Shown here: piece after piece, positions 14,689 to 64,000 of the stretch
Numbering within the stretch: the first letter of the stretch is position 1
Layout of the letters: each line of letters begins with the position of its first letter
NCBI GenBank assembly: GCA_964019135.1
Contig: OZ025257.1
Coordinates: forward strand, 29,061,260-29,125,259
From: Arenicola marina
Taxonomy: Eukaryota; Annelida; Polychaeta; Arenicolidae
Reading direction: 5' to 3'
Length of the DNA: 64,000 nucleotides
Position numbers and translations under genes: made by a program
Notes under the pieces: generated by a model
What the model saw: the letters and a program-made list of their open reading frames with translations, nothing else
What the model was told of the DNA's origin: nothing
Databases searched by the model: none

Positions 14689-14845
14689 ATGCCGAAAAGA
14701 GAGCATCGACGTTCTTTTATGGTGACTACGCGTTATGCAGACTCGCGACTGACTCCACGCCCCAGGGAGGCCATGGAGGGAGGCAAGGCAACCGTCTTCA
14801 ACTACGAGGAAACTGTAGAAAAGCTAGACAAGTACTACAGGCAAG
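14689..14845 (+). CDS. PHKB: PHKB exon 1 (start codon)
   Basis: Residues 1-52 plus one base. The ATG at 14689 is the first in frame after a TAA at 14671. A second in-frame ATG at 14773 has a stronger context (gccATGG) and could also start the protein. The N terminus is basic (KREHRRS, residues 3-9), a position where the mammalian beta subunit has a regulatory Ser; phosphorylation here is inference. The conserved part is [10 protein letters not shown], equivalent to the DKLDHYYR of vertebrates. The donor is caag|gtaggt, phase 1. Confidence 0.88.
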
Positions 14846-32800: not shown

Positions 32801-35800
32801 TTGCATGTCACTTGTCTCCGTGCCTGTCACTTGTCTCCTTGCATGTCACTTGTCTCCGTGCCTGTCACTTGTCTCCTTGCATGTCACTTGTCTCCTTGCA
32901 TCTCCTTGCCTGTCACTTGTCTCCTTGCATGTCACTTGTCTCCTTGCATGTCACTTGTCTCCGTGCCTGTCACGTTTCCATTTATATGTATAGCAGTCAT
33001 GAGAAGCTACCGCCTAGTATTAATGTGACCTATCAATGTAAATAATGCATATCTAACTTCATGATTAGTCATCTAGCCTTCAGCTGTAAACCTTTCGTTG
33101 CAAATTCGAAATCTTCCGCTTGCTGTCTAGCTAACTGCAGTAACAACAATTTTTAATGCTTACTGAATCATTAATAATCAATGGGTGGACGGGGTGAAGG
33201 GTGGTGGGTGGACGGGGTGGGGCAGTTACGGGGTGTTGGGTGGACGGGTTGATGCAGTTACAGGGTGAGGGTAGACGGGGTGATGCAGTCATGGGATGGA
33301 CGGGTGTTGGGTGGACGGGGTGTGGGTAGAGGGGGTACTGGATGGATGGGGTGCTGGGTAGAAGGGGTGTGGGTAGACGGGGTGGTGGTTGGATGGGATG
33401 GACAGAGAGTGGTTGTACGGGGTGGTCGCTTTACGAGTATCTTGGTTACAAAGAAATTACGATTGAAAGTCGACGTTGTTATCATGCATTGAGAGCGATT
33501 AATGTTAATATTAGTCATTATTACTATTAAAAGGACGATGTCCATATGCTGGAAAAGGACAATTTGTTATATTAAAATTAAGATTGGTTGGTTACATTTG
33601 GGTCTCCGGAATATGTTTATCTTATATTTGTTGCATCCAATAGACACCCTTACGTCTTCCTTGTGGTTGTAAATAACAATGGGCAAAAAGACCCTTATTT
33701 CTAAGTGATGATAAAGATAGACAGACTAGATAACGATGGGTATAGATAGACGTGTGGGGCGTGGTACTGTATGCTGTGTTGGTGGCCTGTTGTCAGAACA
33801 CGGACGCCTCGCTGCTGCCAGCCATCAGCTGGCCGTCCTTCGCCATCCACGAGGAGGCGCTCGTCCACCGCACCATGGACAAGATGATGAGGAGGCTGAG
33901 AGGGACCTGCGGCCTCAAGCGCTTCCTGCGAGACGGCTACAGGACCGTCACGGAGGACAGGAACCGGAAATACTACCGTCCGGCGGAAATCAGGGTCTGT
34001 TTCTCTTCCGGTTACATTGCATTTACATCATGGATCAGAGGTTTATAAAGTTATAAGATACAGTTATTTTGATAATTTGTCAGTAATTTAAGGATGCGGT
34101 CAATTAATTACAATGCAAGGCAGACAGTGATACAGTGATACCGTAGAGCCGGGATATGTCACAAACTGCAGCCGTGATGACGGGCCGTTTGCCGAATCAG
34201 GCCAAGATGGCGCCGTGCCGCACTGCGTGGGTTCATAGACGTATTGATTCATTTCAACATAACAAATTACCAAATAGATACAATGATACTTAGATGTGAC
34301 ATTGGTATGTTTCCATAGTTGTGTACAGATATTGCCAATATGTTATATGCCGCTTTTCGGAGAATAATTTTAGTATATTAATTAATATTAACAAATAGAA
34401 TGACGAAACCACGTTGATCTTTTGACAGACGTTTGACAGCATCGAGTGCGAGTGGCCCTTGTTTTACATCTACCTCGTCATAGACAGTAAGTCCCATTCT
34501 TTCATTGGGGAGACATGCTAATATATCTAACGCTTGTATGAACAAATTTTTTGCAGTCTAATTTGAGCAAGTGTGTCGGTTTTTGTCACCTTAACCGTAT
34601 GGCAAGATACGTAAACTATTCAGAAACCTTTTTCCTGACGTCAGCCAAATATCTTTTATTTATATTGTGCGATTCTGCCACCGAAGCAGTGACACAGCTA
34701 CGATTTTCTCCCATATGGTTGCGTTCGATGTCCCTTCTTTCCAGGTATCTACAAAGGAGATCACGACAAAGCCGAGTATTGGCAGAGTCAACTCAGTCCG
34801 CTTCTCAAAGACTCCAACGATGGTGAGTTACCCCGACATGTAAGATAAAACGTTAACAGTTTGACTGACTGCATTACCAGATGTGGGACTTTCTGATATG
34901 GAAGTTTGGTCTGTATGTAGATCTCCAAATATGACCCATTTGTGTGAACCACTGTATTGTAGTTAGTAATCTGCACATTGTTAGTAATCGTTTGTTTTGA
35001 CCAGTAATCATCTGTGTCAACAAGTGTGACATATCATTAAACTTATGTTTCGATACTATCTGGACTTCAAGCCCAGGCATGTAATAAATTCTGCTTTATA
35101 TATCTATTTCAGGACCTGTTATGCCTAACTGTCTGATATGTATATTTCAGGATCTGTCGGGCTTAATTGACTGATGTGTCTATTTCAGGAGTGTCGGGCT
35201 TAATTGACTGATGTGTCTATTTCAGGACTGTCGGGCTTAATTGACTGATATGTCTATTTCAGGACTGTCGGGCTTAATTGACTGATATGTCTATTTCAGG
35301 ACTGTCGGGCTTAATTGACTGATATGTCTATTTCAGGACCTGTCGGGCTTAATTGACTGATGTGTCTATTTCAGGACTGTCGGGCTTAATTGACTGATGT
35401 GTCTATTTCAGGACTGTCGGGCTTAATTGACTGATGTGTCTATTTCAGGACTGTCGGGCTTAATTGACTGATGTGTCTATTTCAGGACATGTCGGGCTTA
35501 ATTGACTGATGTGTCTATTTCAGGACATGTCGTGCCTAACTGTCTGATATGTCTATTTCAGGACCTGTCGTGCCTAACTGTCTGACATGTCTATTTCAGG
35601 ACCTGTCGTGCCAAAGTATTACTATTTGCCCAAGGATTTGATTGACTTTGAGCGCATGAATCCCGGAAGTCAAGAACGCATACCCAGCTCCGAGGGGGAG
35701 GGCAACAATTTGTTCCTCTGGGGCCAGTCTATGTACGTCATATCTCAGCTACTGGGTAAGTACGGGCACTGTCACAGGATCGTTAATGTCATATGTATGT

Positions 35801-38800
35801 AGAACAAGGGCATAGCACGTGGTTTAGGTGGCATTTTGCATATTCTATACATAATTTGAAAAATGTAGACATTCCGTTGTCGTACAATCACAAGAGTTAA
35901 GCGAAAAAATATTTCAACATAACACAGGATAAAAATTTAAATGCTTCACGTATTTGACCTTGATCGAACTCGAAAACATACTCCAAAATACCATGGTCTC
36001 TAATTGATCAAATTCGAAGGAATTCGTCTGGTTCGGCAACACTAACAGAAACTGCTAAAAGTGGTGTATTTGATACCAAAGTTTGAAAATATCTTCGGTT
36101 AGGTTTATTTTCAACTTTCGCGTATGCCGGATAATTTTGATGGTTAAATTTAACGTGGACCAACAACTCTTTGCACTCACTAACGAAACAACTTAACGGT
36201 ACATGTTTATCAATTGCTGTCTTTCAAATATGAAAAACTAACTTTGGCCGCGTGTCGTTCTGCCCTCTAGTGGAGGGCCTGGTCAACATCAACGAGCTGG
36301 ACCCCATCCGCCGCTACCTGCCGGCTGCTGAACGTCCGCGGCCCAACACCCGATACTCGTCCTTTCAGGTGAGTGGCTACCACGTAGCGCTCTGTCCATC
36401 ACATGACAATCACGTGACCGCCGCGTCTCAATCACGTGACGACCATGTGACGTAGCGCGTGTTTCGTATCTGGTATGGTGGTGACCAAACATCCCCACCG
36501 CGCCTACAGTGGATTTGGTTAATTGACTTTTTTGTTTATGCTGACTGATGGCTCGTGGTGCATTCACTTGCCACTATAAGTGTATTACAATTTCACTTAC
36601 TGATGAAAGCTACTTTATTTCTCGCTTGGTATTTTGTCTTGATTTATAAAGTCACATGTAAGGTACAATATTTTAAAAATAACAACCCGGAATGACATCC
36701 TCAACAGCCCATCAGGGCTTATAAAGCAATACAGTGAGTAAATAAACAGGCGATTAGTCAATATCCGAGAACGTGATATAAATTCATTAGGCGTTTCCAA
36801 TATATTACTGTTACTGCGAATCTAGGAGTCTGCGCCTAGCGTATCTTGGTCCCTGTTCTGTTTGGTGTATCCTCTCTATATGTCAGGCTCAGTATGGACG
36901 GAGACAGGCCAACGCCAAGATGCGACTTGTACGGAAATGTTTTTGGATTCATACAGCTGCAGTTTTGAGATCAAGATGCGGCTTCTCATATGTATGAGAC
37001 AAAAAGTTATAATTACGTTATCACAAGCTGGAAATGTCTATAATTAATGGTGTAAAGGATTAGAGAACACTGGGAAGTAGAATTGTGATCCTCGATAGAT
37101 TTCCAGATTTCAAGCAATTGCGCATATTCACAACGGTACTGTGCCACGTGTCTTATACACAGTAACTATGACACCCTGCCACGTGTCTTATACACAGTAA
37201 CTATGGCACCCTGCCACGTGTCTTATACACAGTAACTATGACACCCTGCCACGTGTCTTAAACACAGTAACTATGACACCCTGACACGTGTCTTGTACAC
37301 AGTAACTATGGCACACTGCCACGCGTCTTGTACACAGTAACTATGACACCCTGCCACGTGTCTTATGCACAGTAACTATGGCACCCTGCCACGTGTCTTA
37401 TACACAGTAACTATGACACCCTGCCACGTGTCTTATACACAGTGACTATGGCACCCTGCCACGTGTCTTATACACAGTAACTATGGCACCCTGCCACGTG
37501 TCTTATACACAGTAACTATGGCACCCTGCCACGTGTCTTATACACAGTAACTATGACACCCTGCCACGTGTCTTATACACAGTAACTATGGCACTCTGCC
37601 ACGTGTCTTATACACAGTAACTATGACACCCTGCCACGTGTCTTATACACAGTAACTATGACACCCTGGCACATAGTTTTGCCACGTGTCTTGTACACAG
37701 TAACTATGGCACATTGCCACGTGTCTTGTACACAGTAACTATGACACCCTGCCACGTGTCTTATACACAGTAACTATGACACCCTGCCACGTGTCTTATA
37801 CACAGTAACTATGACACCCTGCCACGTGTCTTATACACAGTAACTATGGCACCCTGCCACGTGTCTTATACACAGTAACTATGACACCCTGCCACGTGTC
37901 TTATACACAGTAACTATGACACCCTGCCACGTGTCTTGTACACAGTAACTATGGCACACTGCCACGCGTCTTGTACACAGTAACTATGACACCCTGGCAT
38001 ATAGTTTTGCCACGTGTCTTGTACACAGTAACTATGGCACCCTGCCACGTGTCTTATACACAGTAACTATGGCACCCTGCCACGTGTCTTATGCACAGTA
38101 ACTATGGCACCCTGCCACGTGTCTTATACACAGTAACTATGACACCCTGGCACATAGTTTTGCCACGTGTCTTATACACAGTAACTATGGCACATTGCCA
38201 CGTGTCTTGTACACAGTAACTATGACACCCTGCCACGTGTCTTGTACACAGTAACTATGGCACCCTGCCACGTGTCTTATACACAGTAACTATGGCACCC
38301 TGCCACGTGTCTTATACACAGTAACTATGGCACCCTGCCACGTGTCTTATACACAGTAACTATGACACCCTGCCACGTGTCTTATACACAGTAACTATGG
38401 CACTCTGCCACGTGTCTTATACACAGTAACTATGACACCCTGCCACGTGTCTTATACACAGTAACTATGACACCCTGGCACATAGTTTTGCCACGTGTCT
38501 TGTACACAGTAACTATGGCACATTGCCACGTGTCTTGTACACAGTAACTATGACACCCTGCCACGTGTCTTATACACAGTAACTATGACACCCTGCCACG
38601 TGTCTTATACACAGTAACCATGACACCCTGCCACGTGTCTTATACACAGTAACTATGGCACCCTGCCACGTGTCTTATACACAGTAACTATGACACCCTG
38701 CCACGTGTCTTATACACAGTAACTATGACACCTTGCCACGTGTCTTGTACACAGTAACTATGGCACACTGCCACGCGTCTTGTACACAGTAACTATGACA

Positions 38801-41800
38801 CCCTGGCATATAGTTTTGCCACGTGTCTTGTACACAGTAACTATGGCACCCTGCCACGTGTCTTATACACAGTAACTATGGCACCCTGCCACGTGTCTTA
38901 TGCACAGTAACTATGGCACCCTGCCACGTGTCTTATACATAGTAACTATGGCACCCTGCCACGTGTCTTATACACAGTAACTATGGCACCCTGCCACGTG
39001 TCTTATACACAGTAACGATGGCACCCTGCCACGTGTCTTATACACAGTAACTATGGCACCCTGCCACGTGTCTTATACACAGTAACTATGACACCCTGCC
39101 ACGTGTCTTCTACACAGTAACTATGGCACTCTGCCACGTGTCTTATACACAGTAACTATGACACCCTGCCACGTGTCTTATACACAGTAACTATGGCACC
39201 CTGCGACGTGTCTTATACACAGTAACTATGGCACCCTGCCACGTGTCTTATACACAGTAACTATGGCACCCTGCCACGTGTCTTATACACAGTAACTATG
39301 ACATCCTGCCACGTGTCTTATACACAGTAACTATGGCACCCTGCCACGTGTTTTGTACACAGTAACTATGGCACACTGCCACGTGTCTTGTACACAGTAA
39401 CTATGGCACACTGCCACGCGTCTTGTACACAGTAACTATGACACCCTGGCATATAGTTTTGCCACGTGTCTTGTACACAGTAACTATGGCACACTGCCAC
39501 GTGTCTTATACACAGTAACTATGACACCCTGGCACATAGTTTTGCCACGTGTCTTGTACACAGTAACTATGGCACATTGCCACGTGTCTTGTACACAGTA
39601 ACTATGACACCCTGCCGCGTGTCTTGTACACAGTAACTCTGGCACGCTGCCACGTGTCTTGTACACCGTAACTATGGAACACTGCCACGTGTCTTGTACA
39701 CAGTAACTATGTCACACTGCCACTGCCACGTGTCTTGTACACTAACTGGCACATTGCCACGTGTCTTGTTCACAGTAACTGTGGCACCCTACCACGTGTC
39801 TTGTACACAGTAACTATAGCACACTGCCACGTGTCTTGTGCACAGTAACTATGACACACTGTCACATGTCTTGTACACCGTAACTATGGCACACTGCCAC
39901 GTGTCTTGTACACAGTAACTATAACACCCTGGCACATAGTTTTGCCACGTGTCTTGTACGCAGTAACTATGGCACACTGCCACGTGTCTTGTACACAGTA
40001 ACTATGACACCCTGGCACATATTTTTGCCACGTGTCTTGTACGCAGTAACTATGGCACATTGCCACGTGTCTTGTACACAGTAACTATGGCACACTGCCA
40101 CGTGTCTTGTACACAGTAACTATGACACCCTGCCACGTATCTACTCAGTAACTATGACACCCTGCCGCGTGTCTTGTACTCTTGTACACAGTAACTATGA
40201 CACCCTGCCACGTGTCTTGTCCACAGTAACTATGTCACACTGCCACGTGTCTTGTAGACAGTAACTATGGCACACTGCCACGTGTCTTGTAGACTAACTA
40301 TGGCACCCTGGCACATGTCTTGTACACAGTAACCATGGCATACTGTCACGTGTCTTATACACAGTAACTATGGCACACTGCCACATGTCTTGTACATGGT
40401 CACTATGTTAATCCTGTCACATGCATTGTCTCGACAAACTGTTAACATCTAAAGACGTAGGACAATATCTCGCATTTCTATTGAAGTGATTATCGGTGTA
40501 CCCTTTGCGTTCTCTTCAGCGGGGATCATCAGATCAGGTATATACTCACACCTTTCAGGCAGTTTTTGACCTTATTCTTCACTCTGCATGTTGTTGGCCG
40601 TTAGTGCATGCTACTTGTTCACACAGTAACACGGTTTGTGATCGCTGGTGTGGCGCCCCGCCTCACTATTGCGTCCGCTTCATTATACCGCCGGCCTCAC
40701 TACGCAGTCCACTCCATGCGCAGTCTAGCCTAGTCGCTTCCTCTCATTGGCCACGTCTTAACTCTGTCTGTGCAGGTCTGCAGTATGGGCCGAGATCATG
40801 GTGTTGCCACTGTGACTCCAGCCATTGGCCTCTATAGACGACGTGTGGGGATTATACTGGGTCCCTTCTTGGTTTGCTTTTAAGCTTTCAATGTAAATCA
40901 ATGCAAGAGGCACATACCTGTTGTTTCGAGCAACGGTGAGGGCTTTCTCCGGTTGGTTGGATTCCGTTCTCCTAACGGCAAACCGAGCATTAATACTACG
41001 CTAAGTAATCAATTGCTTTCAACATGGTCCGGTGTTACCGTAACCTGTGGACTGCCAGTTAATAACAGTCAATGTGTCTGTCGGTTGGTCTAAGCTGGAC
41101 GGAACCCATCGCCCATCTCTATCCTTGATGCTGCAGGTATCAGGCTGTCAATCCCTTTCGGGACATATCTGTACCTGAACCACGATCTTTAGTTATGTCA
41201 GCCAAATGAAAGGCAATGCCACTTTCTTCACGTTCAGTTATTTAAGTTACTCGGTTATGCAATTAAGTAGAACATGGATGGCAATTTGTTTTGTCATTCG
41301 CTTATATATATTAAGGACTTTGGTCCTTGATATATAACATCGTGTACTGGCTTTCGTATCGTCCAGATCTATAAAATGTAATCCCATATTTCACTATTTT
41401 CAGAAAGCACAGACACACCTGCACAATTGATAATACGTGGATACTTTGTATATTCCGCCATAACATCTTAAACGTCTTTCTGGTGGAATATTTTAGTAAG
41501 ATCTTGGACTTAATTATTTCATTATCAGAAACACATGAAAGGATTGATGATCCCAGCTTGAGACAATTCAGTGGGTACTGTGGGAGACACACTGTTACTT
41601 TTATTATGTTTGTGGAACCATTCTTAACATATCGGCTACCTATTGACCTTGTACCGCTGTAGTCTGCACACACTGTTGGTTTGTTTTGGTCCTGAATCCC
41701 CATCCCCAGTACTTATAATATGACTGTGAAACCTCCCTGACATAACTATGTCGTCCTGAAACCATACGGCCAGTACTTACAATATCGCTGTGAAACCTCC

Positions 41801-53800: not shown

Positions 53801-56800
53801 TAGATTAGGTAGGGCACTGTGGTGATGTCTGAATGGTTTAGTGTAGAGTGAGCTAATGATAAAAGAGGTCAACATAAGGTCGGGTACTGTGGCGATGTCT
53901 GCTTGGTTTAGTGTAGAGTGCGTTAATGATGAGAGAGGACTATATTAGGTGAGGGTCTGTGGCGATGTCTGATTGGTTTAGTGTAGAGTGAGTTAATGAT
54001 GAGAGAGGACATCATGAGGTGGGGCTCTGGCGATATCTGCTTGGTTTAGTGTAGAGTGAGTTAATGATGAGAGAGAACTAGATTAGGTAGGGCACTGTGG
54101 TGATGTCTGATTGGTTTAGTGTAGAGTGAGTTAATGATGAGAGAGGACTAGATTAGGTAGGGCACTGTGGCGATGTCTGATTGGTTTAGTGTAGAGTGAG
54201 TTAATGATGAGAGAGGACTAGATTAGGTAGGGCACTGTGGCGATGTCTGAATGGTTTGGTGTAGAGTGCGTTAATGATGAGAGAGGACTAGATTAGGTAG
54301 GGCACTGTGGCGATGTCTGCTTGGTTTAGTGTAGAGTGAGTTAATGATGAGAGAGGACTAGATTAGGTAGGGCACTGTGGTGATGTCTGATTGGTTTAGT
54401 GTAGAGTGAGTTAATGATGAGAGAGGACTAGATTAGGTAGGGCACTGTGGCGATGTCTGAATGGTTTGGTGTAGAGTGCGTTAATGATGAGAGAGGACTA
54501 GATTAGGTAGGGCACTGTGGCGATGTCTGAATGGTTTGGTGTAGAGTGCGTTAATGATGAGAGAGGACTAGATTAGGTAGGGCACTGTGGCGATGCCTGC
54601 TTGGTTTAGTGTAGAGTGAGTTAATGATGAGAGAGGACAACATGAGGTGAGGCTCTGTGGCGATGTCTGCTTGGTTTAGTGTAGAGTGAGTTAATGATGA
54701 GAGAGGACTAGATTAGGTAGGGCACTGTGGCGATGTTTGATTGGTTTAGTGTAGAGTGAGTTAATGATGAGAGAGGACTAGATTAGGTAGGGCTCTGTGG
54801 TGATGTCTGATTGGTTTAGTGTAGAGTGAGTTAATGATGAGAGAGGACAACATAAGGTAGGGCACTGTGGTGATGTCTGATTGGTTTAGTGTAGAGTGAG
54901 TTAATGATGAGAGGACGACATAAGGTAGGGCACTGTGGTGATGTCTGATTGGTTTAGTGTAGAGTGAGTTAATGATGAGAGAGGACTAGATTAGGTAGGG
55001 CACTGTGGCGATGTCTGAATGGTTTGGTGTAGAGTGAGTTAATGATGAGAGAGGACAACATAAGGTAGGGCACTGTGGCGATGTCTGCTTGGTTTAGTGT
55101 AGAGTGAGTTAATGATGAGAGAGGACTAGATTAGGTAAGGCACTGTGGTGATGTCTGATTGGTTTAGTGTAGAGTGAGTTAATGATGACAGAGGACTAGA
55201 TTAGGTAGGGCACTGTGGCGATGTCTAAATGGTTTGGTGTAGAGTGCGTTAATGATGAGAGAGGACAAAATGAGGTGAGGCTCTGTGGCGATGTCTGCTT
55301 GGTTTAATGTAGAGTGAGTTAATGATGAGAGAGGACAACATAAGGTAGGGCGCTGTGGTGATGTCTGATTGGTTTAGTGTAGAGTGAGCTAATGATAAAA
55401 GAGGTCAACATAAGGTCGGGTACTGTGGCGATGTCTGCTTGGTTTAGTGTAGAGTGCGTTAATGATGAGAGCGGACTATATTAGGTGAGGGTCTGTGGCG
55501 ATGTCTGATTGGTTTAGTGTAGAGTGAGTTAATGATGAGAGAGGACAACATGAGGTGGGGCTCTGTGGCGATGTCTGCTTGGTTTAGTGTAGAGTGAGTT
55601 AATGATGAGAGAGGACTAGATTAGGTAGGGCACTGTGGTGATGTCTGATTGGTTTAGTGTAGAGTGAGTTAATGATGAGAGAGGACTAGATTAGGTAGGG
55701 CACTGTGGCGATGTCTGATTGGTTTAGTGTAGAGTGAGTTAATGATGAGAGAGGACTAGATTAGGTAGGGCACTGTGGCGATGTCTGAATGGTTTGGTGT
55801 AGAGTGCGTTAATGATGAGAGAGGACTAGATTAGGTAGGGCACTGTGGCGATGTCTGCTTGGTTTAGTGTAGAGTAAGTTAATGATGAGAGAGGACAACA
55901 TGAGGTGGGGCTCTGTGGCGATGTCTGCTTGGTTTAGTGTAGAGTGAGTTAATGATGAGAGAGGACTAGATTAGGTAGGGCACTGTGGTGATGTCTGATT
56001 GGTTTAGTGTAGAGTGAGTTAATGATGAGAGAGGACTAGATTAGGTAGGGCACTGTGGCGATGTCTGAATGGTTTGGTGTAGAGTGCGTTAATGATGAGA
56101 GAGGACTAGATTAGGTAGGGCACTGTGGCGATGTCTGAATGGTTTGGTGTAGAGTGCGTTAATGATGAGAGAGGACTAGATTAGGTAGGGCACTGTGGCG
56201 ATGCCTGCTTGGTTTAGTGTAGAGTGAGTTAATGATGAGAGAGGACAACATGAGGTGAGGCTCTGTGGCGATGTCTGCTTGGTTTAGTGTAGAGTGAGTT
56301 AATGATGAGAGAGGACTAGATTAGGTAGGGCACTGTGGCGATGTCTGATTGGTTTAGTGTAGAGTGAGTTAATGATGAGAGAGGACTAGATTAGGTAGGG
56401 CTCTGTGGTGATGTCTGATTGGTTTAGTGTAGAGTGAGTTAATGATGAGAGAGGACAACATAAGGTAGGGCACTGTGGTGATGTCTGATTGGTTTAGTGT
56501 AGAGTGAGTTAATGATGAGAGAGGACTAGATTAGGTAGGGCACTGTGGCGATGTCTGAATGGTTTGGTGTAGAGTGAGTTAATGATGAGAGAGGACAACA
56601 TAAGGTAGGGCACTGTGGCGATGTCTGCTTGGTTTAGTGTAGAGTGAGTTAATGATGAGAGAGGACTAGATTAGGTAGGGCACTGTGGTGATGTCTGATT
56701 GGTTTAGTGTAGAGTGCGTTAATGATGAGAGAGGACTAGATTAGGTAGGGCACTGTGGCGATGTCTGAATGGTTTGGTGTAGAGTGCGTTAATGATGAGA

Positions 56801-59800
56801 GAGGACAAAATGAGGTGAGGCTCTGTGGCGATGTCTGCTTGGTTTAATGTAGAGTGAGATAATGATGAGAGAGGACAACATAAGGTAGGGCGCTGTGGTG
56901 ATGTCTGATTGGTTTAGTGTAGAGTAAGTTACTGATTGGAGAGGACAAAATGAGGTGAGGCGCTGTGGTGATGTCTGATTGGTTTAGTGTAGAGTGAGTT
57001 AATGATGAGAGAGGACTAGATTAGGTAGGGCACTGTGGCGATGTCTGAATGGTTTGGTGTAGAGTGCGTTAATGATGAGAGGACAAAATGAGGTGAGGCT
57101 CTGTGGCGATGTCTGCTTGGTTTAATGTAGAGTGAGTTAATGATGAGAGAGGACAACATAAGGTAGGGCGCTGTGGTGATGTCTGATTGGTTTAGTGTAG
57201 AGTGAGTTACTGATTGGAGAGGACAAAATGAGGTTAGGCGCTGTGGTGATGTCTGATTGGTTTAGTGTAGAGTGAGTTAATGATGAGAGAGGACTAGATT
57301 AGGTAGGGCACTGTGGTGATATCTGAATGGTTTAGTGTAGAGTGAGCTAATGATAAAAGAGGTCAACATAAGGTCGGGTACTGTGGCGATGTCTGCTTGG
57401 TTTAGTGCAGAGTGCGTTAATGATGAGAGAGGACTATATTAGGTGAGGGTCTGTGGCGATGTCTGATTGGTTTAGTGTAGAGTGAGTTACTGATTGGAGA
57501 GGACAACATAAGGTAGGGCTCTGTGGCGATGTCTGCTTGGTTTAGTGCAGAGTGCGTTAATGATGAGAGAGGACTAGATTAGGTAGGGCACTGTGGCGAT
57601 GTCTGCTTGGTTTGGTGTAGAGTGCGTTAATGATGAGAGAGGACTAGATTAGGTAGGGCACTGTGGTGATGTCTGAATGGTTTGGTGTAGAGTGCGTTAA
57701 TGATGAGAGAGGACTAGATTAGGTAGGGCACTGTGGCGATGCCTGCTTGGTTTAGTGTAGAGTGAGTTAATGATGAGAGAGGACAACATGAGGTGAGGCT
57801 CTGTGGCGATGTCTGCTTGGTTTAGTGTAGAGTGAGTTAATGATGAGAGAGGACTAGATTAGGTAGGGCACTGTGGCGATGTCTGATTGGTTTAGTGTAG
57901 AGTGAGTTAATGATGAGAGAGGACTAGATTAGGTAGGGCTCTGTGGTGATGTCTGATTGGTTTAGTGTAGAGTGAGTTAATGATGAGAGAGGACAACATA
58001 AGGTAGGGCACTGTGGTGATGTCTGATTGGTTTAGTGTAGAGTGAGTTAATGATGAGAGAGGACTAGATTAGGTAGGGCACTGTGGCGATGTCTGAATGG
58101 TTTGGTGTAGAGTGAGTTAATGATGAGAGAGGACAACATAAGGTAGGGCACTGTGGCGATGTCTGCTTGGTTTAGTGTAGAGTGAGTTAATGATGAGAGA
58201 GGACTAGATTAGGTAGGGCACTGTGGTGATGTCTGATTGGTTTAGTGTAGAGTGCGTTAATGATGAGAGAGGACTAGATTAGGTAGGGCACTGTGGCGAT
58301 GTCTGAATGGTTTGGTGTAGAGTGCGTTAATGATGAGAGAGGACAAAATGAGGTGAGGCTCTGTGGCGATGTCTGCTTGGTTTAATGTAGAGTGAGATAA
58401 TGATGAGAGAGGACAACATAAGGTAGGGCGCTGTGGTGATGTCTGATTGGTTTAGTGTAGAGTAAGTTACTGATTGGAGAGGACAAAATGAGGTGAGGCG
58501 CTGTGGTGATGTCTGATTGGTTTAGTGTAGAGTGAGTTAATGATGAGAGAGGACTAGATTAGGTAGGGCACTGTGGCGATGTCTGAATGGTTTGGTGTAG
58601 AGTGCGTTAATGATGAGAGGACAAAATGAGGTGAGGCTCTGTGGCGATGTCTGCTTGGTTTAATGTAGAGTGAGTTAATGATGAGAGAGGACAACATAAG
58701 GTAGGGCGCTGTGGTGATGTCTGATTGGTTTAGTGTAGAGTGAGTTACTGATTGGAGAGGACAAAATGAGGTTAGGCGCTGTGGTGATGTCTGATTGGTT
58801 TAGTGTAGAGTGAGTTAATGATGAGAGAGGACTAGATTAGGTAGGGCACTGTGGTGATATCTGAATGGTTTAGTGTAGAGTGAGCTAATGATAAAAGAGG
58901 TCAACATAAGGTCGGGTACTGTGGCGATGTCTGCTTGGTTTAGTGCAGAGTGCGTTAATGATGAGAGAGGACTATATTAGGTGAGGGTCTGTGGCGATGT
59001 CTGATTGGTTTAGTGTAGAGTGAGTTACTGATTGGAGAGGACAACATAAGGTAGGGCTCTGTGGCGATGTCTGCTTGGTTTAGTGCAGAGTGCGTTAATG
59101 ATGAGAGAGGACTAGATTAGGTAGGGCACTGTGGCGATGTCTGCTTGGTTTGGTGTAGAGTGCGTTAATGATGAGAGAGGACAAAATGAGGTGAGGCTCT
59201 GTGGCGATGTCTGATTGGTTTAGTGTAGAGTGAGTTAATGATGAGAGAGGACTAGATTAGGTAGGGCACTGTGGCGATGTCTGAATGGTTTAATGTAGAG
59301 TGCGTTAATGATGAGAGAGGACAACATAAGGTAGGGCGCTGTGGTGATGTCTGATTGGTTTAGTGTAGAGTGAGTTACTGATTGGAGAGGACAACATAAG
59401 GTAGGGCTCTGTGGCGATGTCTGCTTGGTTTAGTGTAGAGTGCGTTAATGATGAGAGAGGCCAACATAAGGTAGGGCGCTGTGGTGATGTCTGATTGGTG
59501 TAGTGTAGAGTGAGTTACTGATTGGAGAGGACAACATAAGGTAGGGCTCTGTGGCGATGTCTGCTTGGTTTAGTGTAGAGTGAGTTAATGATGAGAGAGG
59601 ACAACATAAGGTAGGGCGCTGTGGTGATGTCTGATTGGTGTAGTGTAGAGTGAGTTACTGATTGGAGAGGACAACATAAGGTAGGGCTCTGTGGCGATGT
59701 CTGCTTGGTTTAGTGTAGAGTGCGTTAATGATGAGAGAGGACAACATAAGGTAGGGCGCTGTGGTGATGTCTGATTGGTTTGGTGTAGAGTGCGTTAATG

Positions 59801-60796
59801 ATGAGAGAGGACTAGATTAGGTGAGGGTCTGTGGCGATGTCTGCTTGGTTTGGTGTAGAGTGCGTTAATGATGAGAGAGGACTAGATTAGGTAGGGCACT
59901 GTGGCAATGTCTGCTTGGTTTGGTGTAGAGTGCGTTAATGATGAGAGAGGACTATATTAGGTGAGGGTCTGTGGCGATGTCTGCTTGGTTTGGTGTAGAG
60001 TGCGTTAATGATGAGAGAGGACAACATAAGGTCGGGTACTGTGGCAATGTCTGCTTGGTTTGGTGTAGAGTGCGTTAATGATAGAGGACAACATAAGGTC
60101 GGGTACTGTGGCAATGTCTGCTTGGTTTGGTGTAGAGTGCGTTAATGATGAGAGAGGACTAGATTAGGTAGGGCACTGTGGCAATGTCTGCTTGGTTTGG
60201 TGTAGAGTGCGTTAATGATGAGAGAGGACTAGATTAGGTAGGGCACTGTGGCGATGTCTGCTTGGTTTGGTGTAGAGTGCGTTAATGATGGGAGAGGACA
60301 AAATGAGGTGAGGCTCTGTGGCGATGTCTGAATGGTTTAGTGTAGAGTGAGTTAATGATCAGTTAATATTGATAGTTACAGCATTAGGTAGGTCACTGTA
60401 GCTGTGTCTTATAACTATAGTATGCTAATAGTTTCCCGTTAGAAAGGATAACACATGATAAGGGACTTTCGGCTCTGGTTGAGCGTTGGTTGCGGCACCG
60501 TACTGACTGTCCATGTTGCCCTGGTATCCAGGGGTCCCAACGCCCGGCATATCTTCGAGGTCCTCGCCCAGTTCAAACGCGGCGAGTGCGACGGCATCAA
60601 AGTCCGGCTTGGGCGCCTCCAGGAGTTCATCTCGTCCGCCTGCGTCGAGCATCTGGACTTCATGAACATTGATCCCGAGAAAGATTACCAGTTCCGGACG
60701 TTTCAAGAGATGGATATGGAGAAGCAGTTCCGTAGCCTGACTGACCTTCCCAAGATGTCCAAGCTTGCCGAGCAGGAGTCCTGGATCAACTACCAG
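14689..60796 (+). CDS. PHKB: phosphorylase b kinase regulatory subunit beta, 5' part (15 joined exons plus one alternative exon)
   Basis: Beta subunit of phosphorylase kinase, the cytosolic (alpha-beta-gamma-delta)4 complex that activates glycogen phosphorylase in response to calcium and PKA. Joining the exons listed below gives 2136 nt in one frame, 712 residues. They align end to end with the N-terminal two thirds of vertebrate PHKB (about 1090 residues), as I know it. Landmarks are [14 protein letters not shown]...[84 protein letters not shown] and IIREDN. SKYNNGS and IQTQTP distinguish beta from alpha. The region covers the glycosyl-hydrolase-15-like domain and part of the linker. The calmodulin-binding and C-terminal parts lie beyond the window. 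All introns are GT-AG. Exon 6 exists in two alternative copies. Confidence 0.97.
14942..15709 (+). mobile_element. MITE with 35-38 bp terminal inverted repeats, TA target site
   Basis: The left end tagtcaaaacggaatttctc... continues to ccgaacatcgaaattt. The right end is its reverse complement at about 15672-15709 (aaatttcgatgttcgg...gacta), with few mismatches. Both ends are flanked by TA (14940-41 and 15710-11). It is ~770 bp, has no transposase and lies in PHKB intron 1. TA plus long inverted ends fits a Tc1/mariner-type nonautonomous element. Confidence 0.8.
16864..17577 (+). pseudogene. LINE ORF1 protein, 5'-truncated
   Basis: 237 codons within the element. The frame runs on upstream to an ATG at 16825, but that part is host flank, before the insertion point. 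The first internal Met is at 16903. The N-terminal half is a coiled coil (heptads around [18 protein letters not shown] to [10 protein letters not shown]). Then [15 protein letters not shown] begins the RRM-like core, with RCHRLG and [16 protein letters not shown] typical of L1/Tx1 ORF1 proteins (RNA-binding chaperones that coat the LINE RNA). The end is intact. Confidence 0.85.
18043..20994 (+). pseudogene. LINE ORF2, endonuclease and reverse transcriptase part
   Basis: Open from 18043; the first ATG is at 18127. The conserved endonuclease start ([12 protein letters not shown], with the catalytic Asn) lies before that ATG, so the true start is non-AUG or was lost. Endonuclease: [28 protein letters not shown] and [11 protein letters not shown]. 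Reverse transcriptase: [27 protein letters not shown] (motif A), [12 protein letters not shown] (motif B) and [10 protein letters not shown] (motif C, about 20133-20162). The frame ends early at 20994 because of a shift. The continuation lies in the next frame at about 20992-21808. Confidence 0.93.
20992..21808 (+). pseudogene. LINE ORF2, C-terminal part after frameshift
   Basis: In a +1-shifted frame, starting about [16 protein letters not shown], the ORF2 C-terminal region continues through [16 protein letters not shown] to the knuckle [19 protein letters not shown] (about 21424-21480). It ends at the stop at 21806-21808, ~90 bp before the A-rich tail. This is the usual end of Tx1/L1 ORF2, so only the one break separates the two parts. 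Confidence 0.88.
22994..23194. repeat. 200 bp inverted repeat (MITE-like hairpin)
   Basis: aactcttgtttttaccagcc and onward at 22994-23020 is the reverse complement of 23168-23194 at 26 of 27 positions, with a ~147 bp spacer that has further partial symmetry (ggctggta near 23042). It lies in PHKB intron 1 and does not code. No clear target duplication was found. Confidence 0.6.
23416..23557 (+). CDS. PHKB: PHKB exon 2
   Basis: Residues 53-99. The acceptor ggtttcag|tg and donor ttcaa|gtaaga give phase 1 in, phase 2 out. It encodes [17 protein letters not shown] followed by [17 protein letters not shown], the first conserved helices of the glucoamylase-like domain. QSPTTGLFP and DSLYCAA are near-identical to vertebrate beta subunits. 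Confidence 0.96.
23952..24159 (+). CDS. PHKB: PHKB exon 3
   Basis: Residues 100-169. Acceptor ttttacag|aag, donor ctacag|gtgcgt, phase 2 in, phase 0 out. It encodes [39 protein letters not shown] and the [13 protein letters not shown] end, all colinear with vertebrate PHKB. Introns 2 (23558-23951) and 3 flank it. Intron 2 has nothing recognisable. Confidence 0.96.
24253..26888. mobile_element. possible 2.6 kb nonautonomous element in intron 3
   Basis: The left edge is a perfect palindrome: actgacagaagtt, 3 nt loop, aacttctgtcagt (24253-24281). The right edge, acttctgtcagt (26877-26888), is the reverse complement of the left edge, so the interval has 12 bp inverted ends. It has no long frame. 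Inside are several TGACGTCA palindromes (near 24770, 24780, 25104 and a cluster at 25818-25842), a phrase repeated at 24808 and 25513 (cgtcaaaaatcggaaaaa), and degenerate ~45 bp repeats with agcccaaattggcc between 26530 and 26770. The superfamily is unknown and no clear target duplication is seen. Confidence 0.4.
26976..27035 (+). CDS. PHKB: PHKB exon 4
   Basis: Residues 170-189, a 60 nt phase 0 exon encoding [20 protein letters not shown]. Acceptor ctttcag|ttg, donor ttacag|gtaaat. It matches the vertebrate segment NAVSLYLLYLVEMISSGLQ. It is too short to show as an independent frame, and was found by homology and phase. Confidence 0.94.
27240..27376 (+). CDS. PHKB: PHKB exon 5
   Basis: Residues 190-234. 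Acceptor tttgtag|atc, donor gcaag|gtaatt, phase 0 in, phase 2 out. It encodes [20 protein letters not shown], then [20 protein letters not shown] and ELHA. The [11 protein letters not shown] block is diagnostic of the beta subunit (alpha has WERGDKTNQG, from memory). It must splice to either exon 6a or exon 6b. Intron 5 (27377-27973) holds nothing else recognisable. Confidence 0.96.
27974..28133 (+). CDS. PHKB: PHKB exon 6a (alternative)
   Basis: 160 nt, residues 235-288. A long pyrimidine tract precedes the acceptor tatag|ctctg; donor caag|gtatca. It encodes [20 protein letters not shown], then [20 protein letters not shown] and [14 protein letters not shown]. The length and both phases equal those of exon 6b, 4.2 kb downstream. 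The proteins agree at 44 of 54 positions, while roughly two thirds of shared codons differ in the third base, so this is an old duplicate kept by selection. Use of both copies would shift the frame, so they should be mutually exclusive. Confidence 0.94.
28134..28949. other. intron between exon 6a and the LINE, nothing recognised
   Basis: Unique sequence with no exon-like frame, repeat array or inverted repeat that I can support. Confidence 0.5.
28997..29848 (-). pseudogene. LINE RT thumb and C-terminal region with zinc finger
   Basis: C-terminal piece of the LINE above, ~280 codons. It begins just after the YLGSTVT-preceding RT region and ends with a Cys-x2-Cys...His-x4-Cys finger. It is in a different frame from the RT part because of the T-run slip at 29836-29843. 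The stop follows NRIT near 28997, and a short hairpin-like 3' UTR (catcgtctttccc...acggatgcc) lies at about 28945-28975. Confidence 0.85.
29850..30965 (-). pseudogene. LINE reverse-transcriptase part
   Basis: About 370 codons with RT motifs 1 to C as listed for the whole element. The catalytic residues FVDLTKAFD and FADDAA are present. The frame continues upstream beyond 30965 in pieces to about 31350, so the Met at 30963-30965 is not a true start. The element lacks an endonuclease, which indicates 5' truncation at insertion or later loss. Confidence 0.85.
31351..32327. other. intron before exon 6b, no feature beyond small runs
   Basis: A small tandem motif, cgcttgtcgctctc, repeats three to four times at the edge of the LINE (31316-31362), and a C run lies at 31609-31624. 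The rest is unique, with no exon-like segment. Confidence 0.5.
32328..32487 (+). CDS. PHKB: PHKB exon 6b (alternative)
   Basis: 160 nt, residues 235-288 in the alternative form. Acceptor ctttacag|ctcc, donor ctaag|gtattt. It encodes [20 protein letters not shown], then [20 protein letters not shown] and [14 protein letters not shown]. This copy is closer to vertebrate PHKB at several of the ten differing sites (NLFG, DAHNRNR), so it may be the ancestral-type exon. Splice sites, length and phase are all intact, and there is no stop. Confidence 0.95.
32720..32985 (+). repeat. 19 bp tandem repeat, ~13 copies
   Basis: The unit cttgcctgtcacttgtctc and its variant with cttgcatg or ccgtgcctg run from about 32722 to 32980 in intron 6b. 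It gives three overlapping Cys/Leu-rich frames that are not genes. Confidence 0.95.
33180..33425 (+). repeat. G-rich degenerate tandem repeat
   Basis: Irregular units of about 15-30 bp built on gggtggacggggtg, with variants such as gatgcagttacgggg. It is purine-rich on the + strand and noncoding. Confidence 0.85.
33797..33994 (+). CDS. PHKB: PHKB exon 7
   Basis: Residues 289-354, 198 nt, phase 0 at both ends. Acceptor ttgtcag|aac, donor atcagg|gtctgt. It encodes [20 protein letters not shown], then [48 protein letters not shown] and YYRPAEI are hallmark blocks of PHK alpha/beta. The exon is far richer in G+C than the flanking introns. Confidence 0.97.
34429..34486 (+). CDS. PHKB: PHKB exon 8
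   Basis: Residues 355-373, 58 nt, phase 0 in and 1 out. Acceptor ttgacag|acg, donor gaca|gtaagt. It encodes [19 protein letters not shown], matching the family block [11 protein letters not shown]. Introns 7 (33995-34428) and 8 hold no other feature. Confidence 0.94.
34745..34822 (+). CDS. PHKB: PHKB exon 9
   Basis: Residues 374-399, 78 nt, phase 1 at both ends. Acceptor ctttccag|gta, donor cgatg|gtgagt. It encodes [20 protein letters not shown] followed by KDSND, colinear with the vertebrate [21 protein letters not shown] segment. Confidence 0.93.
35100..35599 (+). repeat. 37-38 bp minisatellite made of the exon 10 splice acceptor
   Basis: Thirteen head-to-tail units immediately precede exon 10. 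Each ends in the acceptor-like tctatttcag and begins with a copy of the first exonic bases (gacctgtcgtgcc or gactgtcgggctt). The real exon starts at 35600 with the same gacctgtcgtgcc. The two units nearest the exon are the closest matches; the inner units are homogenised to gactgtcgggcttaattgac. Each unit therefore offers an AG|GA acceptor. Units of 37-38 bp are not multiples of three and contain stops, so using a decoy would break the frame. Confidence 0.96.
35600..35755 (+). CDS. PHKB: PHKB exon 10
   Basis: Residues 400-451, 156 nt, phase 1 at both ends. The acceptor ctatttcag|gac is the last of fourteen similar acceptors; donor actgg|gtaagt. It encodes [30 protein letters not shown], then [25 protein letters not shown] and LFLWGQ are strongly conserved in PHKB, which fixes the exon start at the final acceptor. 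Confidence 0.96.
36271..36368 (+). CDS. PHKB: PHKB exon 11
   Basis: Residues 452-484, 98 nt, phase 1 in, 0 out. Acceptor ccctctag|tgg, donor tttcag|gtgagt. It encodes [20 protein letters not shown], then [13 protein letters not shown], matching the vertebrate ISPKDIDPVQRYVP region. Intron 10 (35756-36270) has no other feature. Confidence 0.95.
36640..36735 (-). mobile_element. possible LINE 3' tail fragment
   Basis: Read on the - strand, the segment contains ataagccctgatgggctgtt and atgtcattccgggttgtt. This resembles the 3' UTR tail common to CR1/L2-like LINEs, from memory. There is no coding part and no duplication is seen. The rest of 36369-37139 is unremarkable intron. Confidence 0.3.
37140..40430 (+). 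repeat. 35 bp minisatellite, ~90 copies, each with a CACGTG box
   Basis: The unit runs from gccacgtgtcttatacacag to actatggcaccct, with period 35 (for example starts at 37143 and 37178). Variants have ttgtacacag, or the longer ggcacatagttttgcc module. Blocks recur at about 809 bp (the acatagtttt variant at 37671 and 38480; the atatagtttt variant at 37999 and 38808), so there is a higher-order repeat. The distal end (39700-40430) is more diverged. It lies in PHKB intron 11. Confidence 0.97.
40431..41699. other. intron 11, unique stretch
   Basis: Frames of 113 codons (+, 40496-40837) and 130 codons (-, 41311-41703) are present but resemble nothing I know and lack splice or start context. I treat both as chance. 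Confidence 0.5.
41700..42740 (+). repeat. 64 bp minisatellite, block 1 (~16 copies, CpG retained)
   Basis: Period 64, with the markers ccctacggccagtacttaca, atatcgctgtgaaacctccc and cataaccgtttggtcctg. Units are almost identical. A second block of the same family lies at 47905-48655, separated by a 5.1 kb insert. Confidence 0.96.
42767..42983 (-). mobile_element. 217 bp 5'-truncated LINE/SINE fragment with (ATT)n tail
   Basis: An 11 bp direct repeat, cgagctcttaa (42756-42766 and 42984-42994), flanks a segment that begins with (taa/aat)n followed by tgtttattaagtacttt. Read on the - strand, it ends in a (TTA)-type microsatellite tail, as RTE/CR1/L2-like elements and their SINEs do. It is too short to assign to a family. 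Confidence 0.65.
43530..43945 (+). repeat. ~240 bp duplicated block with long C/G runs
   Basis: The text from ccccttccagaccctaaatt through ggtgatcaaaaaataatgg to cggtcgcaagattgcataac occurs twice (about 43548-43690 and 43780-43930), separated by aggggcggacccatctgg and long G runs. A further diverged piece ends near 43990. It resembles a nonautonomous DNA element rich in homopolymers, and is noncoding. Confidence 0.75.
44230..44480 (+). repeat. dispersed repeat related to 3895-4075
   Basis: Shared ordered pieces: ggaacaatagt or agaacaatagt, a cacaaccct core, ggcggcgtttga or ggggcgtttga, and tctcgccaaaatt. Similarity is patchy, so the copies are old. Confidence 0.4.
45370..46020 (+). repeat. 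degenerate ~22-33 bp tandem repeat
   Basis: Units built on ggaggagagacaccccaagtt with variable spacing run through this interval and produce spurious Pro/Leu-rich and Gly/Arg-rich frames. It is strongly purine-biased on the + strand. Confidence 0.85.
47905..48655 (+). repeat. 64 bp minisatellite, block 2 (~12 copies, CpG lost)
   Basis: Same unit and phase as 41700-42740, but each CpG is replaced by TpG or CpA: ctacggcc to ctatggcc, atatcgctg to atgtcactg, aaccgttt to aaccattt. The last units (48480-48620) are intermediate (aaccgttt again, atatcactg). Confidence 0.95.
48895..49560 (+). repeat. 36 bp minisatellite, ~18 copies
   Basis: Units contain gacatgtcgtcacatcctaa followed by actgaggccagatata. 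36 is a multiple of three, so frames stay open on both strands for 75-138 codons. These are repeat artefacts in PHKB intron 11. Confidence 0.95.
49665..49995 (+). repeat. ~24 bp minisatellite, ~13 copies
   Basis: The unit tgtcctgtacaccagggtac, then tgtgt, with a cgccacggtac variant, repeats to 49995 and opens frames in several registers on both strands. It is noncoding. 49996-50634 contains nothing I recognise. Confidence 0.94.
50635..50865 (+). CDS. PHKB: PHKB exon 12
   Basis: Residues 485-561, 231 nt, phase 0 at both ends. Acceptor ttcggtag|agt, donor ccaag|gtccgt. It encodes [40 protein letters not shown], then [25 protein letters not shown] and EPIQIWP are signature blocks of the beta subunit. 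Beforehand lies a 14.3 kb intron. Confidence 0.98.
50876..51022 (+). repeat. ~45 bp tandem repeat next to the exon 12 donor
   Basis: About three units of 45 bp, each with ataatcacaagtgttatctt and cacaaatgtt, start some 10 nt after the exon 12 donor. Unlike three other arrays in this gene, the unit does not include the splice junction. 51023-51362 is otherwise featureless. Confidence 0.9.
51363..51467 (+). CDS. PHKB: PHKB exon 13
   Basis: Residues 562-596, 105 nt, phase 0. Acceptor cgtaccag|aca, donor gtaaag|gtatgt. It encodes [20 protein letters not shown], then [15 protein letters not shown], colinear with vertebrate CYPIIFDLSDFYMSQD. Intron 13 (51468-51906) has no other feature. Confidence 0.96.
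51907..51989 (+). CDS. PHKB: PHKB exon 14
   Basis: Residues 597-623, 83 nt, phase 0 in, phase 2 out. Acceptor tatttcag|agt, donor catgag|gtgggg. It encodes [20 protein letters not shown] followed by IIREDNM. Its last 17 nt and donor are the seed of the 70 bp array that fills intron 14. Reading past the donor gives a TAG at 52024-52026. Confidence 0.95.
51973..60370 (+). repeat. 70 bp minisatellite built on the exon 14 splice donor, ~120 copies
   Basis: The first unit overlaps exon 14. agagaggacaacatgag|gt at 51973-51991 recurs exactly at 52042 and then at ~70 bp steps (for example 52462 and 52882). Most other units carry the variant gaggactagattag|gtaggg, which is still an AG|GT donor. Each unit also has ggcgatgtctgcttggttta and gtgtagagtgagttaatgat. 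Segments recur at 1538 bp (56201 and 57739) and 1608 bp (54593 and 56201), so larger blocks have been copied. Units degrade after about 60350. Confidence 0.98.
60532..60796 (+). CDS. PHKB: PHKB exon 15
   Basis: Residues 624-712, 265 nt, phase 2 in, phase 0 out. Acceptor tatccag|ggg, donor taccag|gtcagc. It encodes [50 protein letters not shown], then [15 protein letters not shown]. The early part is colinear with vertebrate [24 protein letters not shown], while the end is the variable linker. Reading through the donor meets TAA at 60815. The next exon is outside the window. Confidence 0.95.
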
Positions 60797-63700
60797 GTCA
60801 GCCACGTGGTATACTAAGGGGGGTCCTGGATCAACTACCAGGTCAGCCACGTGGTACACTAAGGGGGGTCCTGGATCAACTACCATGTCAGCCACGTGGT
60901 ACACTAAGGGGGGTCCTGGATCAACTACCAGGTCAGCCACGTGGTACACTAAGGGGGGTCCTGGATCAACTACCATGTCAGCCACGTGGTACACTAAGGG
61001 GGGTCCTGGATCAACTACCAGGTCAGCCACGTGGTACACTAAGGGGAGTCCTGGGTCAACTACCGGGTCAGCCATGTGGTACGCTAAGGGGAGTCCTGGA
61101 TCAACTACCGGGTCATCCACTTGGTACACTAAGGGGAGTCCTGGATCAACTACCAGATCAGCCACGTGGTACACTAAGGGGGGTCCTGGATCATCTACCT
61201 GGTCAGCCATGTGGTACGCTAAGGGAGGTCCTGGATCAACAACCGGGTCAGCCACGTGGTATACTAAGGGGAGTCCTGGATCAACTACCAGGTCAGCCAC
61301 GTGGTACACTAAGGGGGGTCCTGGATCAACTACCATGTCAGCCACGTGGTACACTAAGGGGGGTCCTGGATCAACTACCAGGTCAGCCACGTGGTACACT
61401 AAGGGGAGTCCTGGGTCAACTACCGGGTCAGCCATGTGGTACGCTAAGGGGAGTCCTGGATCAACTACCGGGTCATCCACTTGGTACACTAAGGGGAGTC
61501 CTGGATCAACTACCAGATCAGCCACGTGGTACACTAAGGGGGGTCCTGGATCATCTACCTGGTCAGCCATGTGGTACGCTAAGGGAGGTCCTGGATCAAC
61601 AACCGGGTCAGCCACGTGGTATACTAAGGGGAGTCCTGGATCAACTACTGGGTCAGCCACGTGGTACACTAAGGGGAGTCCTGGATCAACTATCGGGTCA
61701 GCCACGTGGTGCACTAAGGGGAGTCCTGGATCATCTACCGGGTCATCCACTTGGTATACTAAGGGGAGTCCTGGATCAACTACCGGGTGAACCACGTGGT
61801 ACACTAAGGGGAGTCCTGGATCAACTACCGGGTGAGCCACGTGGTACACTAAGGGGAGTCCTGGATCAACTACCGGGTGAACCACGTGGTACACTAAGGG
61901 GAGTCCTGGATCAACTACCGGGTGAGCCACGTGGTACACTAAGGGGAGTCCTGGACCAACTACCGGTCATCCACTTGGTACACTAAGGGGAGTCCTGGAT
62001 CAACTACCAGGTCATCCACTTGGTACACTAAGGGGAGTCCTGGATCAACTACCAGGTCAGCCACGTGGTACACTAAGGCGAGTCCTGGATCAACTACCGG
62101 GTCAGCCACGTGGTACACTAAGGGGGGTCCTGGATCAACTACCGGGTCAGCCATGTGGTACGCTAAGGGGGGTCCTGGATCAACAACCGGGTCAGCCACG
62201 TGGTATACTAAGGGGAGTCCTGGATCAACTACCGGGTCTGCCACGTGGTATACTAAGGGGAGTCCTGGATCAACTACCAGGTCAGCCACGTGGTACACTA
62301 AGGGGAGTCCTGGATCAACTACCGCGTCAGCCATGTGGTACACTAAGGGGGGTCCTGGATCAACTACCGGGTCTGCCACGTGGTATACTAAGGGGAGTCC
62401 TGGATCAACTACCGGGTCATCCACTTGGTACACTAAGGGGAGTCCTGGATCAACTACCAGATCAGCCACGTGGTACACTAAGGGGGGTCCTGGATCAACT
62501 ACCGGGTCAGCCATGTGGTACACTAAGGGGAGTCCTGGATCAACTACCGGGTCAGCCATGTGGTACGCTAAGGGGAGTCCTGGATCAACTACCGGGTCAG
62601 CCACTTGGTACACTAAGGGGAATCCTGGATCAACTACCAGATCAGCCACGTGGTACACTAAGGGGGGTCCTGGATCAACTACCGGGTCAGCCATGTGGTA
62701 CGCTAAGGGAGGTCCTGCATCAACAACCGGGTCAGCCACGTGGTATACTAAGGGGAGTCCTGGATCAACTACTGGGTCAGCCACGTGGTACACTAAGGGG
62801 AGTCCTGGATCAACTATCGGGTCAGCCACGTGGTACACTAAGGGGAGTCCTGGATCATCTACCGGGTCATCCACTTGGTATACTAAGGGGAGTCCTGGAT
62901 CAACTACCGGGTGAACCACGTGGTACACTAAGGGGAGTCCTGGATCAACTACCGGGTGAGCCACGTGGTACACTAAGGGGAGTCCTGGATCAACTACCGG
63001 GTGAACCACGTGGTACACTAAGGGGAGTCCTGGATCAACTACCGGGTGAGCCACGTGGTACACTAAGGGGAGTCCTGGTTCAACTACCGGTCATCCACTT
63101 GGTACACTAAGGGGAGTCCTGGATCAACTACCAGGTCATCCACTTGGTACACTAAGGGGAGTCCTGGATCAACTACCAGGTCAGCCACGTGGTACACTAA
63201 GGGGAGTCCTGGATCAACTACCGGGTCAGCCACGTGGTACACTAAGGGGGGTCCTGGATCAACTACCGGGTCAGCCATGTGGTACGCTAAGGGGAGTCCT
63301 GGATCAACAACCGGGTCAGCCACGTGGTATACTAAGGGGAGTCCTGGATCAACTACCGGGTCTGCCACGTGGTATACTAAGGGGAGTCCTGGATCAACTA
63401 CCAGGTCAGCCACGTGGTACACTAAGGGGGGTCCTGGATCAACTACCGGGTCTGCCATGTGGTATACTAAGGGGAGTCCTGGATCAACTACCGGGTCAGC
63501 CATGTGGTACACTAAGGGGGGTCCTGGATCAACTACCGGGTCTGCCACGTGGTATACTAAGGGGAGTCCTGGATCAACTACCGGGTCTGCCACGTGGTAC
63601 ACTAAGGGGGGTCCTGGATCAACTACCGGGTCAGCCATGTGGTATACTAAGGGGGGTCCTGGATCAACTACCAGATCAGCCACGTGGTACACTAAGGGGG

Positions 63701-64000
63701 GTCCTGGATCAACTACCGGGTCAGCCATGTGGTACACTAAGGGGAGTCCTGGATCAACTACCGGGTCAGCCATGTGGTACGCTAAGGGGAGTCCTGGATC
63801 AACTACCGGGTCAGCCACTTGGTACACTAAGGGGAATCCTGGATCAACTACCAGATCAGCCACGTGGTACACTAAGGGGGGTCCTGGATCAACTACCGGG
63901 TCAGCCATGTGGTACGCTAAGGGAGGTCCTGGATCAACAACCGGGTCAGCCACGTGGTATACTAAGGGGAGTCCTGGATCAACTACTGGGTCAGCCACGT
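60776..64000 (+). repeat. 45 bp minisatellite built on the exon 15 splice donor, >70 copies
   Basis: The first unit overlaps the exon: gtcctggatcaactaccag|g ends exon 15 at 60796 and recurs every 45 bp, followed each time by gtcagccacgtggtacacta and a G run. Many later copies read actaccgg|gtcagcc. The array runs off the window end. Because 45 nt is 15 codons, long frames stay open on both strands (304-504 codons on -, up to 341 on +). They repeat a 15-residue motif and are not genes. Confidence 0.98.

Follow-up and report, generated by a model that had tools for sequence, protein, structure and literature searches.

How does a gene keep being spliced correctly when its exon-intron junctions lie inside minisatellites, and why should several such arrays arise in one gene? 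Both questions are raised by a 64,000-nucleotide (nt) stretch of the Arenicola marina genome (assembly GCA_964019135.1, contig OZ025257.1, positions 29,061,260 to 29,125,259), hereafter the window, whose own numbering is used throughout. Its plus strand carries the gene for the phosphorylase kinase beta subunit (PHKB), in which three tandem arrays each include a splice junction of the gene model. We consider it likely, with a probability of roughly 0.78, that these arrays are tandem duplications of boundary-spanning segments, that they have been tolerated, and that the spliceosome takes the exon-proximal copy.

Tandem Repeats Finder (TRF) called the three arrays at 35098-35608 (period 37), 51973-60359 (70 bp, 120 copies) and 60775-64000 (45 bp, 71.7 copies). 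Splitting them into copies placed the exon 10 acceptor, the exon 14 donor and the exon 15 donor within the units of different arrays (37/38, 70 and 45 bp; Table 1), as the original prediction had claimed; its exon numbers also agree with our gene model if the alternative exons 6a and 6b are counted once. The final copy of array 1 comprises the real acceptor and about 13 nt of exon 10, copy 1 of array 2 takes in 17 nt of exon 14 up to and including the real donor, and copy 1 of array 3 reaches 21-22 nt back into exon 15. Array 3 runs past the end of the window, and its copy number is a lower bound. In all three, the real junction sits in the outermost copy, the remainder is intron, and the arrays extend only intronward. 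Array 2 also has a very strong sense-strand GC skew (+0.63 across 8.4 kb).

The exons were joined by hand, guided by homology and splice signals. The stitched model comprises 723 codons, has no stop with either version of exon 6, and matches the phosphorylase b kinase beta subunit 8jfk_B over residues 41-702 (phmmer, E=2.7e-251) better than the alpha subunit (E=2.3e-151). At the array edges, exon 10 opens with codons for PVVPK and exon 14 closes with codons for IREDNMR; in the alignment these face PVVPK and IREDNIR of the solved beta subunit, which makes exons 10 and 14 the source and the arrays the product. A guessed 18-nt exon at 40520-40537 was dropped, as it had no homology and the frame continues from exon 11 into exon 12 when it is left out. 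Exon 6 is itself duplicated: its two 160-bp versions share 43 of 53 residues at the protein level and 114 of 160 bases in the DNA. They are probably mutually exclusive, because their length is not divisible by 3 and using both or skipping both breaks the frame, the first stop then falling after 318 or 264 codons.

Table 1. Coordinates of the PHKB gene model, the junction-spanning arrays and their splice sites in the window.
Feature	Positions	Strand	Basis or remark
PHKB gene model, exons 1-15	14689-60796	+	723 open codons; phmmer to 8jfk_B
PHKB exons 1-5	14689-14845, 23416-23557, 23952-24159, 26976-27035, 27240-27376	+	
PHKB exon 6, alternatives	6a 27974-28133 or 6b 32328-32487	+	
PHKB exons 7-11	33797-33994, 34429-34486, 34745-34822, 35600-35755, 36271-36368	+	
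PHKB exons 12-15	50635-50865, 51330-51467, 51907-51989, 60532-60796	+	
Array 1, 14 copies of 37/38-bp unit with exon 10 acceptor	35098-35612	+	TRF and copy splitting
Exon 10 first base, acceptor of gene model	35600	+	3'-most copy
Array 2, 120 copies of 70-bp unit with exon 14 donor	51973-60360	+	TRF and copy splitting
Exon 14 donor GAG/GTGGGG	51989-51990	+	copy 1
Array 3, at least 72 copies (72nd incomplete) of 45-bp unit with exon 15 donor	60775-64000	+	TRF and copy splitting
Exon 15 donor CAG/GTCAGC, predicted	60796-60797	+	copy 1; reading frame and site score
Junctions within arrays	exon 10 acceptor 35599/35600; exon 14 donor 51989/51990; exon 15 donor 60796/60797		
ATCAG in exon 14, matching in register the ATCAG at 60358-60362 right after array 2	51970-51974	+	candidate microhomology of first duplication

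That the assembly inflated or invented these arrays is barely credible. Copies differ from one another by 8.5-12.5% on average, so the arrays are not one read piled up. Lancelet assemblies offer a precedent for such errors, in that passages of PMC3902484 report different PGBD5 copy numbers in two assembly versions and those of PMC3902484 and PMC3087553 a globin array misassembled in a draft; according to the same passages, however, re-sequencing of PGBD5 spoke against error (PMC3902484; PMC3087553).

The additional copies retain much of the splice signal. The motif TATTTCAG/GA (slash, junction) is identical in 14/14 copies of array 1, which leaves 13/13 upstream acceptors besides the real one. 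AG/GT is retained in 120/120 copies of array 2, with GT in 119/119 downstream copies. In array 3, GT is retained in 64/72 copies (63/71 downstream of the real donor) and AG/GT in just 12/72. Every substitute (13 acceptors, 119 donors in array 2 and 71 in array 3) brings an in-frame stop inside the lengthened exon, and a working gene must therefore take the exon-proximal site. Recursive splicing at the AG/GT of array 2 was considered and rejected, since by eye no pyrimidine tract lies ahead of the AG.

Selection might maintain the extra sites, either as a reserve or as tuners of splicing. Windows of our own choosing were compared for invariance. Of the 37 windows of its length in array 1, TATTTCAG/GA alone shows no variation at all. 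In array 2, 4 of 70 windows are invariant, AGGT among them. In array 3, by contrast, none of the 45 windows varies as much as that of the donor (71 full copies). The signal is thus mixed, arrays 1 and 2 pointing one way and array 3 the opposite. Mean minor counts per column in intron- versus exon-derived positions are 0.9/1.1, 7.1/10.6 and 3.6/3.8 in arrays 1, 2 and 3, respectively. Nor would a reserve restore the protein, because every substitute site yields a stop. We regard maintenance by selection as very improbable.

Tandem duplication with tolerance would have run as follows. The arrays would have begun as short duplications of segments straddling PHKB junctions, with founding segments of about 13 exonic plus about 25 intronic nt at exon 10, at least 17 plus about 53 at exon 14, and 21-22 plus about 23 at exon 15. 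Such a duplication would be nearly neutral, because one complete splice site stays at the exon edge and all other copies turn intronic; the same duplication wholly within an exon would alter the protein. The proposal that selection halts arrays at exons, one of two offered by the original prediction, follows from this coding constraint and agrees with all three arrays. Slippage and unequal exchange would then have enlarged the arrays into the introns. The spliceosome would take the copy nearest the exon body, that is, the last acceptor or the first donor, and exon definition (recognition of the splice sites at either side of a short exon as a pair) would suffice for this with no special device.

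Traces of such growth are visible in the copies. In array 1, the junction copy and its neighbour are 5% different, against 16-26% for the junction copy and the other 12, a pattern of homogenised interior and diverged boundary copies. Copies resemble each other most closely when 22 units apart in array 2, and when 25 units apart in array 3, which points to later block duplications, as expected of unequal exchange. The ATCAG pair around array 2 (Table 1) would fit slippage at microhomology; a run of at least 5 matching bases at random register has P of about 0.006, a single case confined to array 2. The flanks of array 1 show no clear microhomology by eye.

Is the overlap with junctions more frequent than chance would give? 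Arrays contain 3 of the 31 mapped junctions, and 3 of 18 array intervals within PHKB contain one. These intervals were picked by hand from 58 TRF rows. Overlapping rows were merged, and we excluded the TAA run at 42764-42791, the A-rich rows at 21894-21933 and all rows lying upstream of PHKB; a set of 11 merged arrays additionally omits the intervals at 22055, 23826 and 31315 (about 2, 2 and 3 copies). As a null, each array was grown from a single, randomly placed unit and the expected junction-containing units were counted. The expectation is 0.44 for the 18 intervals (P(≥3) 0.009), 0.31 when only the 13 intervals of at least 2.9 copies are counted (0.003), 0.27 for the 11 merged arrays (0.002), 0.30 for these 11 over 23.4-64 kb (0.003), 0.59 for the 11 with arrays collapsed to one unit (0.018), and 0.43 for the collapsed 35-64 kb region with its 9 arrays and 12 junctions (0.007). 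The value of 0.59 is conservative, because a 5.2-kb stretch within what is possibly one split array of 64-bp units (see below) was collapsed too. None of these P values is a clean test, because PHKB was chosen for showing the feature.

Two explanations turn on these counts. In the first, chance and tolerance suffice: with many arrays, many junctions and many genes available to be picked, a striking gene has been singled out. The region is indeed very array-rich, and P rises to 0.018 with collapsed gene length, but the expected count stays below 0.6 under all six nulls and the phenomenon has been published repeatedly, so that chance appears somewhat unlikely. The description of the arrays as independent in the original prediction agrees with their three distinct units, and there is a local excess over the 0.27-0.59 expected under random placement. 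In the second explanation, the duplications are started by a mutational process with a preference for exon edges (through splice-site nicks, R-loops or nucleosome edges), and the excess is real; it would be an addition to tandem duplication with tolerance and is compatible with it. The ratios of 3/18 against 0.44 and 3/11 against 0.27 speak for it, as do the boundary-spanning repeats, termed mirages, described in several unrelated lancelet genes in passages of PMC3087553 and PMC3902484. However, the locus is post hoc, clear duplication affects just 3 of the 31 junctions, and tandem arrays fill 18,913 of 29,001 bp (65%), which means that the region is unstable in general. Nor does GC skew distinguish the three arrays: sense-strand values of +0.16, +0.63 and +0.09 compare with -0.34 to +0.78 in nine other intervals, a comparison that leaves out the three small intervals named above. 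We consider an exon-edge process unlikely; the special initiating mechanism envisaged in the original prediction is unsupported, and the skew lends no support to its proposed link to R-loops as a common cause.

Each junction was compared with 2 kb of its flank to find copies of itself. Scored against 100 shuffles per junction that kept base composition only, the three array junctions reached z scores of 20.5, 25.7 and 28.5. No convincing older, decayed mirage was found in this flank at the other 28 junctions. The acceptors of exon 3 (23951, z 3.7) and exon 14 (51906, z 3.3) show a weak likeness to nearby upstream sequence, each scoring one point over the best of 100 shuffles, possibly by chance. 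The earlier statement that the other arrays of the gene miss junctions is literally correct, yet a 45-bp (3 x 15) array at 50876-51023 starts 10 bp beyond the exon 12 donor. As a candidate fourth mirage it was rejected, its exon homology not being clear (z 1.7).

Several observations weigh against duplication with tolerance. At exon 15, the protein alignment stops 21 residues short of the donor, before the array unit. Since it does, the polarity of array 3, with the exon as source, would follow by analogy with arrays 1 and 2; the donor itself was placed by reading frame and site score, because the alignment ends earlier and exon 16 onward lies outside the window. This donor is the best-scoring, and the sole well-scoring, of 5 GT candidates ahead of the in-frame stop, 4 of which, itself included, are inside array 3. 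Reading array 3 as a coding repeat was rejected: other frames are open, but the frame of exon 15 hits TAA at 60815. Regular splicing at the junction copies is a prediction, with only indirect support from the intact frame of the model. A weight matrix gives 47 of the 119 remaining donors of array 2, and 13 of the 71 of array 3, a score no lower than that of the real site, which sits awkwardly with strict neutrality, and each early unit of array 2 has an additional donor-like site (52028, score 6.8), beyond the in-frame stop. The exon-like copies of array 2 are scattered throughout and not confined to its ends. Finally, the local excess (P 0.002-0.018) may demand more than tolerance.

The window holds further repeats and mobile elements. 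Arrays of a 64-bp unit at 41685-42739 and 47921-48657 flank the 5.2-kb stretch mentioned above, which has 21-nt arms, 81% complementary, near its ends (42735-42755 and 47880-47900); judged from this layout, the two arrays are possibly one, split by a mobile element. Intron 1 contains a long interspersed nuclear element (LINE)-like element on the plus strand (16816-21805), with an open reading frame (ORF) at 18043-20991 that encodes endonuclease and reverse transcriptase domains. A second reverse transcriptase (RVT_1, ORF 29790-31118) lies antisense between exons 6a and 6b (29000-31118, minus strand). Upstream of PHKB, a 167-bp unit is repeated in 15.5 copies (10046-12634).

With 14-120 near-equal splice sites beside one true site, these arrays amount to a natural test of how the spliceosome chooses a site, and new introns or exons could plausibly come from junction-spanning arrays. 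A bolder version of the argument would have exon edges in this lineage as preferred birthplaces of minisatellites, the spliceosome picking the exon-proximal site among up to 120 near-equal donors, some of them higher-scoring, and the full retention of AG/GT (120/120) and TATTTCAG/GA (14/14) being a sign that the extra sites see some use or give some protection. We think this combination quite improbable. If exon-edge birthplaces and exon-proximal choice held true, mirage arrays would be a natural saturation test of exon definition. A genome-wide count would show whether exon edges are real hot spots of repeat birth; none of junction-spanning arrays is among the matches listed in the open-licence literature.

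The precedent for such arrays is an amphioxus Adh study, reportedly that of Canestro et al. 2002, doi 10.1093/nar/gkf386, as cited in later papers. Passages of PMC3087553 and PMC3902484 bear out, at second hand, the statement in the original prediction that amphioxus Adh has such minisatellites. According to passages of PMC3087553, the Adh3 repeats of B. floridae and B. lanceolatum were named 'mirages', the globin genes BflGb6 and BflGb9 have tandem repeats across intron-exon boundaries, 5' as well as 3' boundaries are affected, and the mechanism of origin is called unclear. PGBD5 has two boundary-spanning arrays and troponin C is cited as a further case in passages of PMC3902484; in those of both papers, the results suggest regular splicing despite the repeats (PMC3087553, PMC3902484). 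The PHKB arrays resemble these mirages in that the unit of each spans a real junction, donors and acceptors are both hit, and AG or GT is kept in many copies; their unit lengths also fall within the range of 10-72 bp for Adh3 and 150-160 bp for globins given in PMC3087553. Further traits of mirages are length instability between alleles, somatic as well, and a homogenised interior with diverged boundary copies, a pattern visible in array 1 but not in the scattered exon-like copies of array 2. The PHKB arrays differ in copy number (14, 120 and at least 72, versus 6 and 3 repeats in BflGb6 and 2-7 in PGBD5, in the passages cited) and in number per gene (three, versus two in PGBD5). Ordinary intronic minisatellites, to which the other PHKB intervals belong, have a similar size range and kind of turnover, but these 15 of the 18 intervals contain no junction. 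In the Rogers model, as outlined in PMC3087553, introns arise when AG/GT proto-splice sites are duplicated in tandem; the copying of a splice signal is shared with the PHKB arrays, and potato RdRp is listed as a case of intron gain in PMC4974935; unlike in that model, the PHKB arrays lengthen an existing intron, and a new intron is not seen. The PHKB arrays belong to the published mirage kind, notable for three in one gene and for their copy number.

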